A DNA stretch of 64,000 bases from a virus. This document shows, in pieces, positions 23,400-55,508 of the stretch. The position numbers and the translations under genes were made by a program. The stretch is taken from positions 62,001 through 126,000 of IMG/VR virus record IMGVR_UViG_3300049460_000312, one strand, 5' to 3'. The notes under the pieces were generated by a model, which made no database searches, was not told the origin of the DNA, and worked only from the letters and a program-made list of their open reading frames with translations. The number at the start of each line of letters is the position of its first letter. Within the stretch, counting starts at the first letter, position 1.

Positions 23400-25700
23400 T
23401 CACGCGACAAACGTGATTGCCGACGGCTTCGGCTCCAGTTCCTGGTACGGCGCATACGTAAACTTCCATCCGTTACAGAGAGCCAAGTGCTTCACCAGCT
23501 CCAACGGTTTCGCGTTCCCCAGCGGAATCTTGCTGCGATCCACGAGCATATCGATGTTGGTTGGCTTGTCGGCCCGCAGGATGTTGTACACGCCCATGCG
23601 GTGTGCGGCGATATTATTGTTGCGATCAATCAACTCCGCCATCGGACGCCACCCCATATACGAGGTGCCAATGGCAGTTTCCGTTTCACCCCAGGCCCGG
23701 ATCGCTTGCTGGCGCCACGGCGACGCATGCTTATCCTGGTTGTTGATGTGCGACAGAATGCCGAAGTTTTGCAGCTTGCCCGAGGACACCGAAGTCCAGT
23801 CATCACCGGTCTTCTCCAGCAGGATGAAGTACACCTCGCCGACGATGATCTTTTCCTGGGTGGTGACGAACTTGCCCGTATGGTCACGATACGTAATGTG
23901 ACCAATCTGTGGCATGAAGTGCTTCTGGATTTCGTCGACGACGTCAGGCAGCTCCGGATCGTTGTTGCTCGGATGGTAGATGTAGATGCCATCCTCCAGG
24001 AACGAGGTCATGTGTTCATGAATCAACCCCGCTGCGGCTTCGCGCTCATAGAACTCAGCCTGCTCCGGACTCACGGTGCGCATGAAGTGCATGAAGCGAT
24101 CCCAGGCGGCCACGGCTGCCGGTTCCTGCTTCTTGTAAGCAATCTCCACCCGTGTTTTCTCCGCGAGACTGAGCTTCTGACCGTGCACGCCGGGATACTG
24201 CACTCCAAACAAGTTACAGAACTCCTTGTTCAGATCCCGGCCTGCTGCGTTAAAGCCCTGCTCGTAGAGACGACCCAGATTCTGCCGTGACACGGTAGCA
24301 CCGCCGTCCATCGCGATATGCGCGCGATTGCCGAACTCGTCCACCGGCATGTCTTCCTTCGGCACAATCTTCACCACCACGCCCTTACCACCCCAGCAGT
24401 CGGTGATCTTGTAGCCTTCCGTCGGTGTCGCTTCATACTCGACCACGAACTCGATGGTAAAGTCATCCATCGGGGAGGCCCGGTAGATCATCTGCACACG
24501 CTGTTCTTCGTTGATGGCTTCCTGTTGCGTCACCGCATACGCATGCTTGAGCAGGTTCTTGAAGTTGTGCGAGACCTTGTAACGGCCTTTAGGCTTATTC
24601 GCCTTCATCACGTTCGACTGACGCAGCACTTCGCGATAAAACACGCGTGCGGCCTGGTCGTACTTCAATGCCTGATCGTTACAGATGCTCGGCGCAAACG
24701 GTGCCCGGGATGCATCATGGCTCACGCGAATGTCGATCACCCGACCGCGGCTCATCACCTGACCGGTTTCCCGATCGGTTTTGGCCGACGGCACATACGT
24801 GAGCTTGTCGAACACGTAGTTCACTTCGCGAGAAGCTGTAGTCGACATTTCCACCGCCGAGTAGACATCGCTGTAACTGCGCAACGCCATCAGCAGGCCA
24901 TCGGGTCGGACATAATCGCCAATGTCCGGGAACGGCTTATAAATCGTTTCGTCCCCGTACAGGTTCAGCGGGAAGTGCGTCGAGCCATATGCCACCGTGC
25001 GCTTTTCATACTTGTGAATCTTCAGCCACGGTACTGCCTCGTCCGAGAGCAAGACACCGTCCTCAGCCACTTCCGGGAAGCTGCCAAAGACGACATTCAA
25101 GTTAATACCGTAACAGTAATTGCCATCCGGGCGTTTGGACGGCGAATCCTGCAAGATGGTATCGGCGGGCAGCATCGAGCCGCGTGAACCCGGCGTGGGC
25201 TGACGCAGCTGGCGAGCCTTTTCGGTATTCTTCAGCGGGAAGCCGAAATACTGGTGGTTGGAGAAATACTCCCGCATCGAAATACAGTCGACTTCACTTT
25301 CCCTGCCCGGCCCTTCATCCGGGTATTCGACAATCAGCATCGTTTCAGGGTTGTGGCGAATTGCATCCGTGCCCACGACTCTGGTGTTATAAAACGGGAT
25401 CATGGCCAAGATCTCGCAGTCACGTTCGACTTTCGTCGAGAACGTGGCTTTACCGTACTGGATCTCGGCCCCGGTTTGAATCCGTCGCGGTGTGGACTTC
25501 TCGAATACCAGGCACTGGGAAGTGTGGCTGGCGCCGAACATCTGCTTACGTGAAGCGGAGACTGTGCCGTCAAACGGCGACAAGCTCATCACGTTAGCCA
25601 ACTCGGGATAGAGTTGATTCGGCTCGTAGTGATAGTTCCAGACCGACGAAAGCGCTTGGGTCAGTGTGGTGTTACTGACACTTGTGTTGTCCTCTGCCAT
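23400..25700 (-). CDS. RNA polymerase beta-like subunit, C-terminal type (probably non-virion polymerase)
   Basis: This protein has 766 residues. Residues 192-260 match the bacterial beta segment around the NFEDAI region (AEDGVLLSDEA at about 212-222, FPLNLYGDE at 243-251). Residues 435-480 (GGKGVVVKIV, EDMPVDEFGNR, SRQNLGRLYE) match the conserved C-terminal beta region near the GDKVA/EDMP and MNxGQ motifs. In phiKZ-like phages beta is split in two; this is the part with the catalytic and clamp-facing regions. An early-type promoter lies 150 bases upstream. It probably forms the polymerase that transcribes later phage genes inside the nucleus. Confidence 0.85.
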   Translation of the reverse strand: MAEDNTSVSNTTLTQALSSVWNYHYEPNQLYPELANVMSLSPFDGTVSASRKQMFGASHTSQCLVFEKSTPRRIQTGAEIQYGKATFSTKVERDCEILAMIPFYNTRVVGTDAIRHNPETMLIVEYPDEGPGRESEVDCISMREYFSNHQYFGFPLKNTEKARQLRQPTPGSRGSMLPADTILQDSPSKRPDGNYCYGINLNVVFGSFPEVAEDGVLLSDEAVPWLKIHKYEKRTVAYGSTHFPLNLYGDETIYKPFPDIGDYVRPDGLLMALRSYSDVYSAVEMSTTASREVNYVFDKLTYVPSAKTDRETGQVMSRGRVIDIRVSHDASRAPFAPSICNDQALKYDQAARVFYREVLRQSNVMKANKPKGRYKVSHNFKNLLKHAYAVTQQEAINEEQRVQMIYRASPMDDFTIEFVVEYEATPTEGYKITDCWGGKGVVVKIVPKEDMPVDEFGNRAHIAMDGGATVSRQNLGRLYEQGFNAAGRDLNKEFCNLFGVQYPGVHGQKLSLAEKTRVEIAYKKQEPAAVAAWDRFMHFMRTVSPEQAEFYEREAAAGLIHEHMTSFLEDGIYIYHPSNNDPELPDVVDEIQKHFMPQIGHITYRDHTGKFVTTQEKIIVGEVYFILLEKTGDDWTSVSSGKLQNFGILSHINNQDKHASPWRQQAIRAWGETETAIGTSYMGWRPMAELIDRNNNIAAHRMGVYNILRADKPTNIDMLVDRSKIPLGNAKPLELVKHLALCNGWKFTYAPYQELEPKPSAITFVA

Positions 25701-25849: not shown

Positions 25850-25862
25850 TTGGTAATATGTG
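25850..25862 (-). promoter_or_regulatory. Early-type promoter of the RNA polymerase beta operon
   Basis: Minus strand CACATATTACCAA, an exact copy of the repeated motif. The start codon is 150 bases downstream. Confidence 0.75.
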
Positions 25863-31747: not shown

Positions 31748-31760
31748 TTGGTAATATGTG
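31748..31760 (-). promoter_or_regulatory. Early-type promoter of gene 29933-31699
   Basis: Minus strand CACATATTACCAA, exact copy; the start codon is 49 bases downstream. Confidence 0.8.
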
Positions 31761-39150: not shown

Positions 39151-41265
39151 TTAGTAGTTGCCTGCACCACCCGTGTTGGTGGCACGCTGATGCGCGTAGC
39201 GGCCGAACGAGCCCGCTGCCACACCTGCGGCTGCATTGCGACGCATGCCCGACGGCACGAACGAACCAGCCGTGCCGAGGTTCGTCGGCAGGTTGCGCAT
39301 GTACGGAGCAACCATACGTGCGGTGCCCTGCGGAGCCGAGACGCCGACCTTCGTTTCGTACACGATACCTGCTTCCGCAACTGCTGCGGCGATAGCGTAG
39401 ATGAACGTCGGGTTGAACGTCACGCGAACCGAGCGACCGGTGATGGTCATCGATTCGAACAGGCCTTGCTGGATACGACGCGTTTCGGTCAGACGGAACA
39501 TCGGATCGACTTCTGCGTTGGCCTGCAGGTTCGACCAGTCGTTGATGGTTTCCAGCTCGCTGTCGCCCGTGGCGTTCAGCACGCAGAGGTAGTCGCCGTC
39601 GCGGATGTCGCGCTTGCCGCCTTGTGCGAAGTAGAAACCGTTGTTCACGTACATGTTGTCGTTGAACACCGGAGCCTTCATCACACCGCCGTTGGCCGCC
39701 TTGTAGATCGGCGAGAACTTGCCGCCCGTCAGCAGGTCTGCTGCGTCGAACAGGTCCTTGATCGCGTTCTGGTCACCGCGTGCAGCTGCGGCGAACACGC
39801 CCGTGATCCAGCTCGACGGACCGCTTTCCGGCACGTCCATGGAGATGAGCAGCGGTTCCAGATGGAAGTACGTCTGGATGACAGCGGCGAGCGCTGCATC
39901 GTTGACGTTCGCGCTGTTCAGCGGCAGACGGCCAGCCTTCGGCAGTTCGCCACCCATGTAGCCCATCGGCATTTGCTGCGGTGCTTCCAGACCGATTGCC
40001 GACAGGTCGCGGATGTTCATGCCGCCTTCCTGATGGCTCGCGCCGTTCTTGTGCTGCTGGATCAACGCGCCGATCCAACGGTTGTCGTTGTACAGCGCTT
40101 GCGTGGTCGCGAGACCTTGCAGGATCACCGGCAGTTCGCACACGTCGTCCGGTGCATCGATGTTCGTGATGACCAGGCGCGGCGTGTAGATCTTCAGCTG
40201 ATCCGGCGTTTGCGCCATGTTGCCCATACCGCCGAACTGCGCAGGCGACGAAGCCGTCGACGGCGTCGAGGTCAGGTCGATGTAGCCGAGCAGCTGCGTG
40301 AGCAACGTCTTCGCTTGCGACGTGTTGTACTGGAACTCACCGGTGTTCTGGTTGTTCTGCTGCTTGCCCGTCAGCATCGACATTTCCAGCACGACGTCGC
40401 CGCGTACCGGCTGGCCGTTCAAGTCGACGAAGTGACCCCAGCTCGACTTGATTTCGTTCTGGAACGTCTGTTGCGCCATTTCCGGCGTGATCGTCCAGCT
40501 GTCTTCTGCGACCATCGTGGCGAGCATCACCGACGTTGCCGTCGTCGCGTTGGCGATGACGTTACGCACCGCTTCTTCCGAACGCAGGTCCAGATCCGCC
40601 GGCACGACGTTCGATTCTGCGTCGATCAGCGTGTAGCCGCGGTAGTTGTCCGAGATGATCTGCACGACACGGGCGCGCAGCGTTGCGTCGTACGCGTCAG
40701 CCGGGACGACCAGGCGTTCGTACTTGATGCCGTTGCCGAACTGCGCTTCGACAGCGGTCTGACCGCGGGCGGTTTGCGCGAGCAACAGCGTGTGGTAGGC
40801 GACGTACTTTTCGCCGGCGTTTTCCTGGCCCTTCAGGACCGCTGCGACGACCAGTGCCGAGATGAGCAGGCCTTCCTTTTCACCGTCGAGCGCGAAGAAC
40901 GCGAACTTGACGGGCTGGTCGACTTCACCTTCGGCGATCTTGTCGGTGACTTCGACGATGGCGCGCATGGCTTGCGAAGTGGCCGCGCGCGAGATGCCGT
41001 AGTTTTGACGGGTGGAGATCATGGAACGGGTTCCTTGCGATTGAGTATTGTTGGTGGTTTGATGCGAAGCTTGCTGGGTTTGCGGTGCGGCACCCTGCGT
41101 GCCGGTGTTGCTAGCAGCGGCTGCGGCGGCGGCGAAGGTATTCTTCTTGCCCGGCGCCTGCGGCGGCTGCTTGTTCGGTTCGGAAGGCGTCGAAGCCGAC
41201 GTGTCGGCAGCCTTTTCACCATTGTTGTTTCCGTCGCTACCGTTGTCGTCGACTTGGATGGCCAT
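39151..41265 (-). CDS. Candidate nuclear shell protein (chimallin-like)
   Basis: This protein has 704 residues with an early-type promoter 84 bases upstream and strongly preferred codons, pointing to very high early expression. Residues 1-85 are disordered (Asn/Gly, then Ala/Gln/Pro-rich), residues 90-660 are globular, and the C-terminal 40 are Ala/Gly-rich ending GGAGNY. It directly precedes the beta-prime-N gene, as phiKZ gp54, the shell protein of the phage nucleus, precedes gp55. The identification rests on synteny, promoter and size. A structure prediction should show the chimallin fold; other abundant proteins remain possible. Confidence 0.6.
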   Translation of the reverse strand: MAIQVDDNGSDGNNNGEKAADTSASTPSEPNKQPPQAPGKKNTFAAAAAAASNTGTQGAAPQTQQASHQTTNNTQSQGTRSMISTRQNYGISRAATSQAMRAIVEVTDKIAEGEVDQPVKFAFFALDGEKEGLLISALVVAAVLKGQENAGEKYVAYHTLLLAQTARGQTAVEAQFGNGIKYERLVVPADAYDATLRARVVQIISDNYRGYTLIDAESNVVPADLDLRSEEAVRNVIANATTATSVMLATMVAEDSWTITPEMAQQTFQNEIKSSWGHFVDLNGQPVRGDVVLEMSMLTGKQQNNQNTGEFQYNTSQAKTLLTQLLGYIDLTSTPSTASSPAQFGGMGNMAQTPDQLKIYTPRLVITNIDAPDDVCELPVILQGLATTQALYNDNRWIGALIQQHKNGASHQEGGMNIRDLSAIGLEAPQQMPMGYMGGELPKAGRLPLNSANVNDAALAAVIQTYFHLEPLLISMDVPESGPSSWITGVFAAAARGDQNAIKDLFDAADLLTGGKFSPIYKAANGGVMKAPVFNDNMYVNNGFYFAQGGKRDIRDGDYLCVLNATGDSELETINDWSNLQANAEVDPMFRLTETRRIQQGLFESMTITGRSVRVTFNPTFIYAIAAAVAEAGIVYETKVGVSAPQGTARMVAPYMRNLPTNLGTAGSFVPSGMRRNAAAGVAAGSFGRYAHQRATNTGGAGNY

Positions 41266-41348: not shown

Positions 41349-41361
41349 TTAGTAATATGAG
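41349..41361 (-). promoter_or_regulatory. Early-type promoter of the candidate shell gene
   Basis: Minus strand CTCATATTACTAA, matching 11-12 bases of the motif; 84 bases upstream of the start. Confidence 0.75.
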
Positions 41362-52935: not shown

Positions 52936-53958
52936 TTACTCCGCGAGGAACCCACCAACCAGCTGTTCATCACCGTCGAGCACCTCGCTCTGGGTGGTGT
53001 AAGCGGCTGCCGCCTTTTCCATGTCGGCCAGGATACCCTTAAGCCGCGCCGAGATATCGTTGAACGGATAGGCTTTCGTCACCAGGTGCAGCGGTGCACG
53101 TTCCGTGACTTCCTTTTCAATGGCCGACGGCATCACGCCGTAGCAGGTGTAGGGAATCACGAAGTCGATGCCACGCGCATCCTTGTTCACGACAGCGGAC
53201 GCGACCGTGATCGTGTCCTTGTGCTCTTCCGCGTCGAGCTTGCCGACGAACGTCTGCAGGCCAGCTGCATGCGTCTTGAACGCCGTCATGCGATCGAAGT
53301 TCAGGAAGTTGTACATGTCGCGGGTGTCGAGCCCTTCGTTCTGACGCGAGAACAGCACGGAGAGCGCCACCACCAGATCGTTGATCTCCGTATCGACTTC
53401 CGAGGGCGGAGTGTCCTTGTTGTTCTCGAAGTACGCGACGGCGATCGACTTCTTGTTCGCCGCGACCAGGCCTTCGAACGTCTTGAACGTCGCGAGCGTG
53501 TTCTTGATCTCGGTGCCCGAGTCCAGCACGCCAACCGTGATCGCGACCACCAGCTCGTCCTGCGCGAGCAGTTCATTGATGACGGCTGCTGCCATCGGCG
53601 CACCCGTGCCGCCCGAGGCCGACGAGAGCACAACGTTCAGGTAACCCGGCTTGTGCTTTTGCAGCATGTCCTTCGCGTGCTTGAGCATCGCCGCCGACAG
53701 GTGCTTGCGCTCCTTGCCTGCGCCGTCCGGTTCCTTGCCCGACGCATCGGTCTTCGGCAGCTTGTAGATCTTGTCCTGTGGCAGGCTCGGCTTCAGGTTC
53801 GAGTTCGACGAATCGAAGTAGACGACATCGATCGTGGCCATGCCCGCTTCGACGTGGCTGCGGTAGTTCTCGAAGTTCGAGCCGATATTGATCCCTGCGC
53901 CACCGCAGGCATACAGCTTGATCGTGCCCAGCTCCGGTGCTTGTGCTTGTTGTTCCAT
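52936..53958 (-). CDS. phuZ: PhuZ-type phage tubulin
   Basis: This protein has 340 residues, ATG 53956-53958 with AAGGGAAGGA. The nucleotide loop YACGGAGINIG is at 16-26 and the tubulin signature SASGGTGAP at 113-121, where FtsZ has GGGTGS. A further LATFKTFEGLV helix and an acidic tail follow. PhuZ forms filaments that centre the phage nucleus and carry capsids to it. Its presence supports a nucleus-forming jumbo phage. In phiKZ it is gp39, and the genes after it here follow the phiKZ order. Confidence 0.9.
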   Translation of the reverse strand: MEQQAQAPELGTIKLYACGGAGINIGSNFENYRSHVEAGMATIDVVYFDSSNSNLKPSLPQDKIYKLPKTDASGKEPDGAGKERKHLSAAMLKHAKDMLQKHKPGYLNVVLSSASGGTGAPMAAAVINELLAQDELVVAITVGVLDSGTEIKNTLATFKTFEGLVAANKKSIAVAYFENNKDTPPSEVDTEINDLVVALSVLFSRQNEGLDTRDMYNFLNFDRMTAFKTHAAGLQTFVGKLDAEEHKDTITVASAVVNKDARGIDFVIPYTCYGVMPSAIEKEVTERAPLHLVTKAYPFNDISARLKGILADMEKAAAAYTTQSEVLDGDEQLVGGFLAE

Positions 53959-54044: not shown

Positions 54045-54254
54045 TTAATCATCCCAGTTCTGGTTGTCAGCCAGTTCCTGAGCCCACGATGCAATCGCAG
54101 CGCGCTGGATTGCGGACAGCGTTGACCAGATTAGCTGAACCTGACTGGGAACTTCCCAACGCCAGTCATGAACCTTGTGGGCTTCACTCCAGGCCGGATC
54201 ATGATAGTCGCTGGGTACAGCGCAGGGGTTGCCCCGGGCGTTGTGGATTTCCAT
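54045..54254 (-). CDS. Small protein of unknown function
   Basis: This protein has 69 residues from ATG 54252-54254, one base after the stop of 54256-55137. It is Trp-rich (DWRWEVPSQVQLIWS) and acidic at the end. It probably shares the early transcript of 54256-55137. No motif was seen. Confidence 0.8.
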   Translation of the reverse strand: MEIHNARGNPCAVPSDYHDPAWSEAHKVHDWRWEVPSQVQLIWSTLSAIQRAAIASWAQELADNQNWDD

Positions 54255-54255
54255 C

Positions 54256-55137
54256 TCAGGGCTTCAGCGCGAAGGTTTCATCCTTGGCGCTGTCTTCGTC
54301 ATCCTTGATCACCGTCACCTTGACACCTTTCGTACCGTCAGCGTTGGTAATCATCAGCGGACCATCTGCAGGAACGACTTCGTTGATGTCCGGGAACTTC
54401 TTGTACTTGATTTCGTCACCGTAGAGATTCAGCGGATAACGACCCGGTTCACCGAACTCGATCGGAGTACGGATCATGCTTTCGCCACCGATGACGAGAC
54501 CGTCTTCCGTAATCATCGGCTTGTCTGCCATGATGACCGCGAGATCGGTGCCGTAACGATAACCTCCGGCTGGCACCCGCTCGATCGACTCGTCGACAGC
54601 CTTCTGCATGTCTTCCGGACGGATCACCAACCCCTTCGACTCTGCATCGAAGCTGACTGCAACGGACGAGGCGGGTTTGGAGAAGTCGACCACACCACCC
54701 AGGGCAGGGAAGTAGGCTTCACCGTGATGCTGGCTCAGATCCAGAAACTCGTGGGTCGCCATCATCTCGACATTGGCGGGGGTGTGTTCGTGGCCGAGAT
54801 CAGCCCGCTCGGGAATATTCGTTTCCGGATCGACTTTCGGCAGGTTGTCACCGAACAGGGCCTGCAATGCATCGGCCCCTTCCTGGACCACCGGCTGCGC
54901 AGTCGCCGCTTCCGTGTACACGGTACGCTGCTGGTCGATCATCGCCTGCTTGTGTTTGTTGACCAGCTTGAAGTGGGCTTCGCGACGGTCCTGTTCGCGC
55001 TGCACTTTGGCGCGATTCTTCATCAAACGCTTCTGCACACCCTTGTTGCGGAACTTGGCGTGCGTGATGCCGGCAGCGACAGCCTCGTCGACTTGACCCT
55101 TGGTGATCTTGGTGTTCAGCAGTTTAGCTTGGCTCAT
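54256..55137 (-). CDS. Protein with an RNA polymerase beta-derived segment
   Basis: This protein has 293 residues, ATG 55135-55137 with AAAGGAAAG and an early-type promoter 87 bases upstream. Residues 1-75 are basic and helical. Residues 191-264 line up with residues 192-270 of the RNA polymerase beta gene at 23400-25700: GGYRYGTDL versus GNYCYGINL, EDGLVI versus EDGVLL, PLNLYGDEIKYKKFPDI versus PLNLYGDETIYKPFPDI, and DGPLM versus DGLLM. The rest of beta is absent, so it is not a complete subunit. It may be a regulator that mimics or contacts polymerase, or a re-used domain. Confidence 0.75.
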   Translation of the reverse strand: MSQAKLLNTKITKGQVDEAVAAGITHAKFRNKGVQKRLMKNRAKVQREQDRREAHFKLVNKHKQAMIDQQRTVYTEAATAQPVVQEGADALQALFGDNLPKVDPETNIPERADLGHEHTPANVEMMATHEFLDLSQHHGEAYFPALGGVVDFSKPASSVAVSFDAESKGLVIRPEDMQKAVDESIERVPAGGYRYGTDLAVIMADKPMITEDGLVIGGESMIRTPIEFGEPGRYPLNLYGDEIKYKKFPDINEVVPADGPLMITNADGTKGVKVTVIKDDEDSAKDETFALKP

Positions 55138-55223
55138 GATACTTTCCTTTTTGTGGTGTAAAGGGGATTGGCGATATAATTGCGCCATACTGTAGAAAAC
55201 AACTCACGTTGCACTAGTTCAGA

Positions 55224-55236
55224 TTAGTAATATGTG
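55224..55236 (-). promoter_or_regulatory. Early-type promoter of gene 54256-55137
   Basis: Minus strand CACATATTACTAA, close to the consensus, 87 bases upstream of the start. Confidence 0.8.
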
Positions 55237-55508
55237 GGCAACGTTGCTTTGAATTGAGCAATGGTTTTCGCTTGAGCGTCGTGAACTTATCTCACGGCTG
55301 GTTACCAAAGTGTTGCCTCGATGGCACGTCTAACTTTTGGTTTTATGAAACTCACACACCCTCCGCCTATGGCTACCGTGCGTGAGTGAACCGGTTATCT
55401 GAAAGAAGTGATTGCCGAGCGGGTTCGGTCTCCTCGGAATCGCAATCTCCTTTCCTTCTCTGACCTGTTTGCTCGCCACGAGCACTACAACGCGAAAAGA
55501 GATTGAAC
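55237..55508. other. Divergent non-coding leader
   Basis: No gene was seen between the early promoter and ATG 55509. Some AT-rich and GC-rich blocks are present; the plus-strand promoter of 55509 must lie here. Confidence 0.5.

Follow-up and report, generated by a model that had tools for sequence, protein, structure and literature searches.

P0001, a 293-amino-acid protein of a nucleus-forming jumbo phage, carries towards its C-terminus a piece homologous to the β subunit of the phage non-virion RNA polymerase (nvRNAP), and this recurrent, portable polymerase element is what is new here. We tentatively favour the interpretation that P0001 is an early accessory factor of the phage nvRNAP, docking or regulatory in nature, that uses a polymerase-derived linear motif. 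The computed basis for this interpretation consists of homology, selective retention of residues invariant in β, the lack of a predicted fold, a separate N-terminal module, an early-type promoter element and recurrence; the docking itself, its partner and any effect on transcription are what we infer from these results. Two of the findings go beyond a first-pass annotation of this DNA: the element recurs outside β in other jumbo phages, and in the closest sequenced relative the N-terminal module occurs on its own, with no β piece.

The P0001 locus

The window analysed is a stretch of 64,000 nucleotides that forms a portion of a 283,373-bp virus record. It includes a chimallin gene (39151-41265; phrog_4795, E 8e-135), and the virus is therefore assigned to the nucleus-forming jumbo phages. 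The following features of the window are relevant to P0001.

54256..55137, minus strand: P0001, a 293-aa ORF with its ATG at 55137, consisting of a basic helical N-terminal module, an acidic linker, the β-derived piece and a short tail
54916..55131, minus strand: N-terminal module, P0001 residues 3-74 (phrog_36316, function unassigned; E 1e-25)
54352..54597, minus strand: β-derived piece, P0001 residues 181-262 (BLASTP to the nvRNAP β C-part, and profile)
54499..54507, minus strand: EDG triplet, P0001 residues 211-213, invariant in the nvRNAP β subunits aligned here
54382..54435, minus strand: portable motif PLNLYGDEIKYKKFPDIN, P0001 residues 235-252, matching the most conserved 18-residue window of β
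54045..54254, minus strand: 69-aa ORF starting beside the P0001 stop codon (phrog_9546, labelled RecX-like filament modulator; E 8e-12)
52936..53958, minus strand: PhuZ tubulin gene, ATG at 53958 (phrog_4733, E 2e-94)
23400..25700, minus strand: nvRNAP β C-part, 766 aa, a homologue of phiKZ gp71-73 (7ogp_C, E 2e-114; by fold 8que_C, E 8e-57)
24888..25154, minus strand: segment homologous to the P0001 piece, β residues 183-271 (BLASTP; AF2 pLDDT 83-92)

P0001 had been described at first pass as adjoining PhuZ. The two genes are indeed nearby and on the same strand, but the minus-strand order is P0001, 69-aa ORF, PhuZ. On the other side, beyond the upstream intergenic region, lies a phrog_3179 gene that is divergent from P0001.

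The closest relative found is G001, taken as Ralstonia phage RP12. Its syntenic orthologue of P0001 (171 aa, L014:6358-6873; phrog_36316) is located between PhuZ and the same divergent phrog_3179 gene, and it shares with P0001 the N-terminal module, the start region (AAGGAAAG just 5' of the P0001 ATG) and conserved upstream blocks. In contrast to P0001, the RP12 protein has no detectable β piece, and the 69-aa ORF was not found in RP12.

The N-terminal module

P0001 was annotated as basic and helical at its N-terminus, and both properties are recovered: residues 1-75 have a pI of 10.9, and the AF2 model places helices at residues 13-21 and 32-98 (pLDDT mostly 75-97). According to this model, the N-terminal 98 residues are a module separate from the β piece. 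The phrog_36316 match is limited to profile positions 6-77, such that the N-terminal module of ~70 residues is present in P0001 while the 171-aa family is not matched over its full length. Identity with the RP12 orthologue is 68% over 59 aa of the module, with dN 0.22 and dS 1.18, indicating purifying selection.

Searches for other relatives of the module in viral_contigs, genome_contigs and 50 jumbo-phage records returned RP12 only, and none were found in INPHARED. Among the phages found, P0001 is the sole example of this module fused to a β piece. An MAFFT hint of a diverged or decayed piece in the RP12 orthologue was rejected, as the β-profile score of -2.1 lies within the shuffles and was exceeded by 11,449 of the 18,453 reported. 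The piece was therefore either gained in the lineage of the window or lost in that of RP12, two histories that a comparison of two genomes cannot tell apart.

An early-type promoter element upstream of P0001

The early promoter noted at first pass has a candidate counterpart in the sequence. An early-type element, CATATTAC, is located 90 bp upstream of the P0001 start and is conserved in RP12. There are four copies in the window, all on the minus strand, where 1.3 are expected for a slightly broader pattern.

55227..55234, minus strand: CATATTAC, 90 bp upstream of the P0001 start
25853-25860, minus strand: CATATTAC, 153 bp upstream of the nvRNAP β gene
31751-31758, minus strand: CATATTAC, 52 bp upstream of an unknown 588-aa gene
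41352-41359, minus strand: CATATTAC, 87 bp upstream of the chimallin gene
55187..55200, minus strand: GTTTTCTACAGTAT, a block that occurs once in the window and is also conserved 5' of the RP12 orthologue

TATATTAC is the predicted promoter of phiKZ and is also contained in the predicted promoter of 201phi2-1 (PMC7058600). Since the element precedes P0001 as it does the nvRNAP β and chimallin genes, and since RP12 shares the conserved blocks in this upstream region, P0001 is probably expressed early. The candidate GTTTTCTACAG was rejected as a repeated promoter because it has one copy only in the window, and an Rfam search of the upstream region yielded no match. The intergenic interval 55200-55410, between P0001 and the divergent phrog_3179 gene, is strongly conserved with RP12 (GGTTACCAAAG ... 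GTGAGTGAACCGGTTAT).

P0001 retains the most conserved residues of nvRNAP β

The match to β is real and slightly longer than the residues 191-264 originally claimed. BLASTP aligns P0001 residues 181-262 with β residues 183-271 (34/89 identical, 38%; E 6e-15), and the PHROG search recovers phrog_3295 (RNAP beta; E 3e-6). Within its own genome, P0001 as query matches only itself and the β gene; the best outside protein is the β of Burkholderia phage FLC9 (E 2e-10). Against a β-only profile P0001 scores 53.1 bits, whereas none of 5,000 shuffled versions of its sequence exceeds 12.3.

Near-invariant β positions, defined as those at least 90% conserved among β subunits, are kept at 19 of 23 sites in P0001, at an overall identity of ~40%. 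The retained residues include EDG and LN.YGD...YK..P.I, and the four lost are P185, one R within a deletion, G252 and R265. Also as first annotated, the rest of β is missing: homology ends at about residue 264, ~90% of β is absent, and P0001 has neither a second-half β motif nor a complete double-psi barrel with the GGKGV lysine motif. The counterparts in phiKZ (gp71-73; PDB 7ogp, 8que) and AR9 (7s00) are homologous to P0001 residues 181-262 and carry LNxYGDxxxYKxFPDI; unlike these, P0001 lacks most of β, a predicted fold and the β-invariant G252 and R265.

Sequence comparison supports the derivation of the piece from a jumbo-phage nvRNAP β gene. The proposed duplication of a polymerase gene stands to this extent, whereas this phage's own β as the source is neither shown nor excluded: in the origin tree, a clade with that β is not rejected (AU test p 0.53) and not supported.

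The β-derived piece has no predicted fold

Structure prediction, which the first-pass annotation had proposed as a check along with comparison with the phage β, did not support a β-like fold for the piece. In the AF2 model of P0001 (32 rows) the piece has pLDDT 38-49 and no strands, and a PDB search gave no match. The control, a model of full β (25 rows), has pLDDT 83-92 over the homologous stretch, a comparison between different sequence contexts and models without partners, in which disorder is a prediction. This β model has strands at residues 198-205, 215-219, 228-238 and 242-244, and P0001 has an 8-residue deletion where β forms strand 228-238. With low pLDDT, no strands, no PDB match and this deletion, a folded β domain is therefore unlikely, and the piece looks like a linear, disordered element in these models.

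Residues 245-268 of the β model are mostly coil and hold NLYGDETIYKPFPDIG. Because the motif is mostly coil at high confidence even in β, it could act as a linear motif. This loop contains the most conserved 18-residue window of β, LNlYGdennyKpFPdIGe (23.4 bits, vs 21.3 for the GGKGV window). Thus, the most conserved stretch of nvRNAP β, and the one copied by other phage proteins, is an irregular loop rather than the catalytic lysine motif.

The element recurs outside β in other jumbo phages

A profile of the P0001 piece was run against 100 jumbo-phage records. Besides β and the paralogous vRNAP genes, fragments spanning or flanking the loop were found in about ten other jumbo-phage records. 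Some are small reading frames, or mini-betas, at or near the gene for the N-terminal part of β' (β' N).

G033, L107:13036-13251, minus strand: mini-beta directly behind the β' N gene
G043, L106:14088-14240, minus strand: mini-beta directly behind the β' N gene
G067, L173:2870-3088, plus strand: mini-beta downstream of the β' N gene, with one other reading frame between
G039, L108:12871-13116, minus strand: mini-beta, its place near β' N inferred from distance to β only
G074: weak mini-beta with a stop inside the match, its place near β' N inferred from distance to β only

The mini-beta genes of G033, G043, G067 and G039 encode 50-72 aa, and three mini-betas begin alike with MSQxVQEDGIV and share a GGAAAGGAG ribosome site. 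In G033, EDG...FPLNLY is joined to GFKITDEFGGNGV, with the flap omitted. Two mini-betas compared with each other have dN 0.29 and saturated dS, with ORF and ribosome site kept. Mini-betas retain EDG and FPLNLY without YKxFPDI, so they and the motif carriers described below may not share a partner.

The motif itself is present in otherwise unrelated proteins, including a 79-aa frame (G078), a 162-aa protein (G032) and a 412-aa frame (G076), together with the following.

G002, L110:2275-2850, plus strand: 191-aa protein with a β' N zinc-finger piece and a PLNLYGDE-type β motif at its C-terminus
G044, L111:3170-6715, plus strand: 1,181-aa protein with one motif copy in a linker

The zinc-finger piece of the G002 protein matches β' N (46%, E 4e-9) and phrog_2987 (E 2e-8), with a further match at E 3.8e-9. 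Apart from P0001, the invariant G after FPDI is kept in one of five motif copies, as though positions that matter for the β fold were no longer constrained. The 1,181-aa protein appears by eye to contain winged-helix repeats, for which Pfam gives only E 0.098.

Scanning 2.9 million viral contigs for a strict DNA version of the motif yielded 59 matches, of which 56 are β, two are the G002 and G032 proteins, and one (L132) looks like chance and was set aside. With the full 721-position β profile, the clear places other than β and vRNAP in 42 records map to profile positions 177-257, and two mini-betas additionally match at 391-415. Being the best conserved part of β, the motif is also the easiest to detect. 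However, the nearly equally conserved GGKGV window was found outside β within mini-betas only, suggesting that ease of detection does not explain everything. Annotated cultured phages gave one place per record and no extra copy, within the limited sensitivity of tblastn, so the element would be dispensable in most. A weak match to β-profile positions 36-58 was also observed outside β, in a 356-aa frame (G016:C1:62600-62668 and G040:C1:219524-219592; E about 7e-4).

Possible roles of P0001

Under the interpretation we tentatively favour, the C-terminal part of P0001 would be a copied, loop-rich β stretch around EDG...PLNLYGDExxYKxFPDI that is unfolded and retained as a flexible tag for docking. 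Such a tag may bind whatever the loop contacts in the polymerase, be it the β' N-part, the homologue of the sigma-like gp68, or a factor located there. P0001 could then hold subunits during assembly, compete with β, or recruit the polymerase to a target of the basic helices, for which DNA, RNA or a scaffold are candidates; docking would thereby affect the assembly, activity or location of the polymerase. Of the roles initially listed for P0001 (mimic, inhibitor, recruiter or regulator), a polymerase-linked one is still the most economical reading, whereas a folded polymerase mimic is disfavoured by the AF2 results. Counting against docking are the facts that P0001 is a single sequence and that RP12 does without the piece.

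Other phage factors offer partial precedents. The sigma-like nvRNAP subunits phiKZ gp68 and AR9 gp226 act with nvRNAP, as proposed for P0001, but P0001 is in part derived from β itself, and family and PDB searches revealed no similarity to either protein. T5 gp026 and SPO1 Gp44 are likewise accessory proteins acting on a multisubunit RNAP, although their target is the host enzyme. To our knowledge, host-RNAP binders of this type are not derived from a polymerase subunit.

A wider proposal, which we consider doubtful, concerns jumbo phages with a multisubunit RNA polymerase of their own. In these phages the short, nvRNAP-specific LNxYGDExxYKxFPDI and flanking EDG stretch of β, in some cases together with a β' zinc-finger piece, would serve as a docking tag that is reused in various proteins, early ones included, and the carriers would make up a hidden network of interactions with the polymerase. 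If the loop is a docking site, the assembly and regulation of nvRNAP could be approached directly through it, and its sequence would be a simple query with which to look for accessory factors. Open questions in this area are how the split jumbo-phage polymerase coheres without α and ω, and whether middle promoters are served by another form of nvRNAP (PMC7598289).

It is also conceivable, but rather unlikely, that the P0001 piece is a tolerated, functionless tail, produced as illegitimate recombination or mobile elements copy β fragments into genes. Its absence from RP12, the presence of the lineage-specific 69-aa ORF at the junction region as well, and the splitting of the β gene in several related records would all be consistent with such an origin, and with one orthologue of P0001 selection on the piece itself is not measurable. 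However, random copying does not readily account for the retention of near-invariant β positions at this level of identity, for the recurrence of the same stretch outside β, or for the substitution pattern of the two mini-betas.

We regard it as improbable that the element is a tag for a non-polymerase partner that also recognises nvRNAP β; the machinery for import into the phage nucleus, a chaperone or a factor handling RNA would be examples. In favour of such a tag, the proteins that carry the motif are otherwise unrelated, several of them have it in tails or linkers, and nvRNAP subunits are concentrated within the phage nucleus (PMC11087766). Nuclear import has been found to involve no conserved motif, with recognition through species-specific surface residues (PMC11087766, PMC12908238). 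This finding and the presence of the motif in AR9 β disfavour a universal nuclear-import signal. The mini-betas behind β' N and the β' zinc-finger chimera suggest that the target is the polymerase and not nuclear import. AR9 is not known to form a nucleus, so the motif would not be restricted to nucleus-forming phages and their nuclear proteins.

That P0001 acts as a folded β-domain mimic, inserted into a polymerase or blocking it, is very unlikely. Such a mimic would fit the homology to β, and the 71-aa mini-betas, in which the flap is left out between the EDG stretch and the KITDxFGG stretch, could fold in this way, but for P0001 the predicted lack of strands, the deleted strand region and the contrast with the β model argue against it. 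Least plausible of all is a decoy for host or satellite factors that attack nvRNAP β, as we know of no such factor and the neighbourhood holds no pointers to defence, although an early-type promoter and a copy of the most conserved β surface would fit.

Additional observations on the β gene

Two arrangements of β were noted among related records. In G074 and G045, nvRNAP β lies in separate frames around profile position 403, a possible intron site. In G036 and G046, it is matched in two pieces within one frame, with an insert at about positions 545-550.
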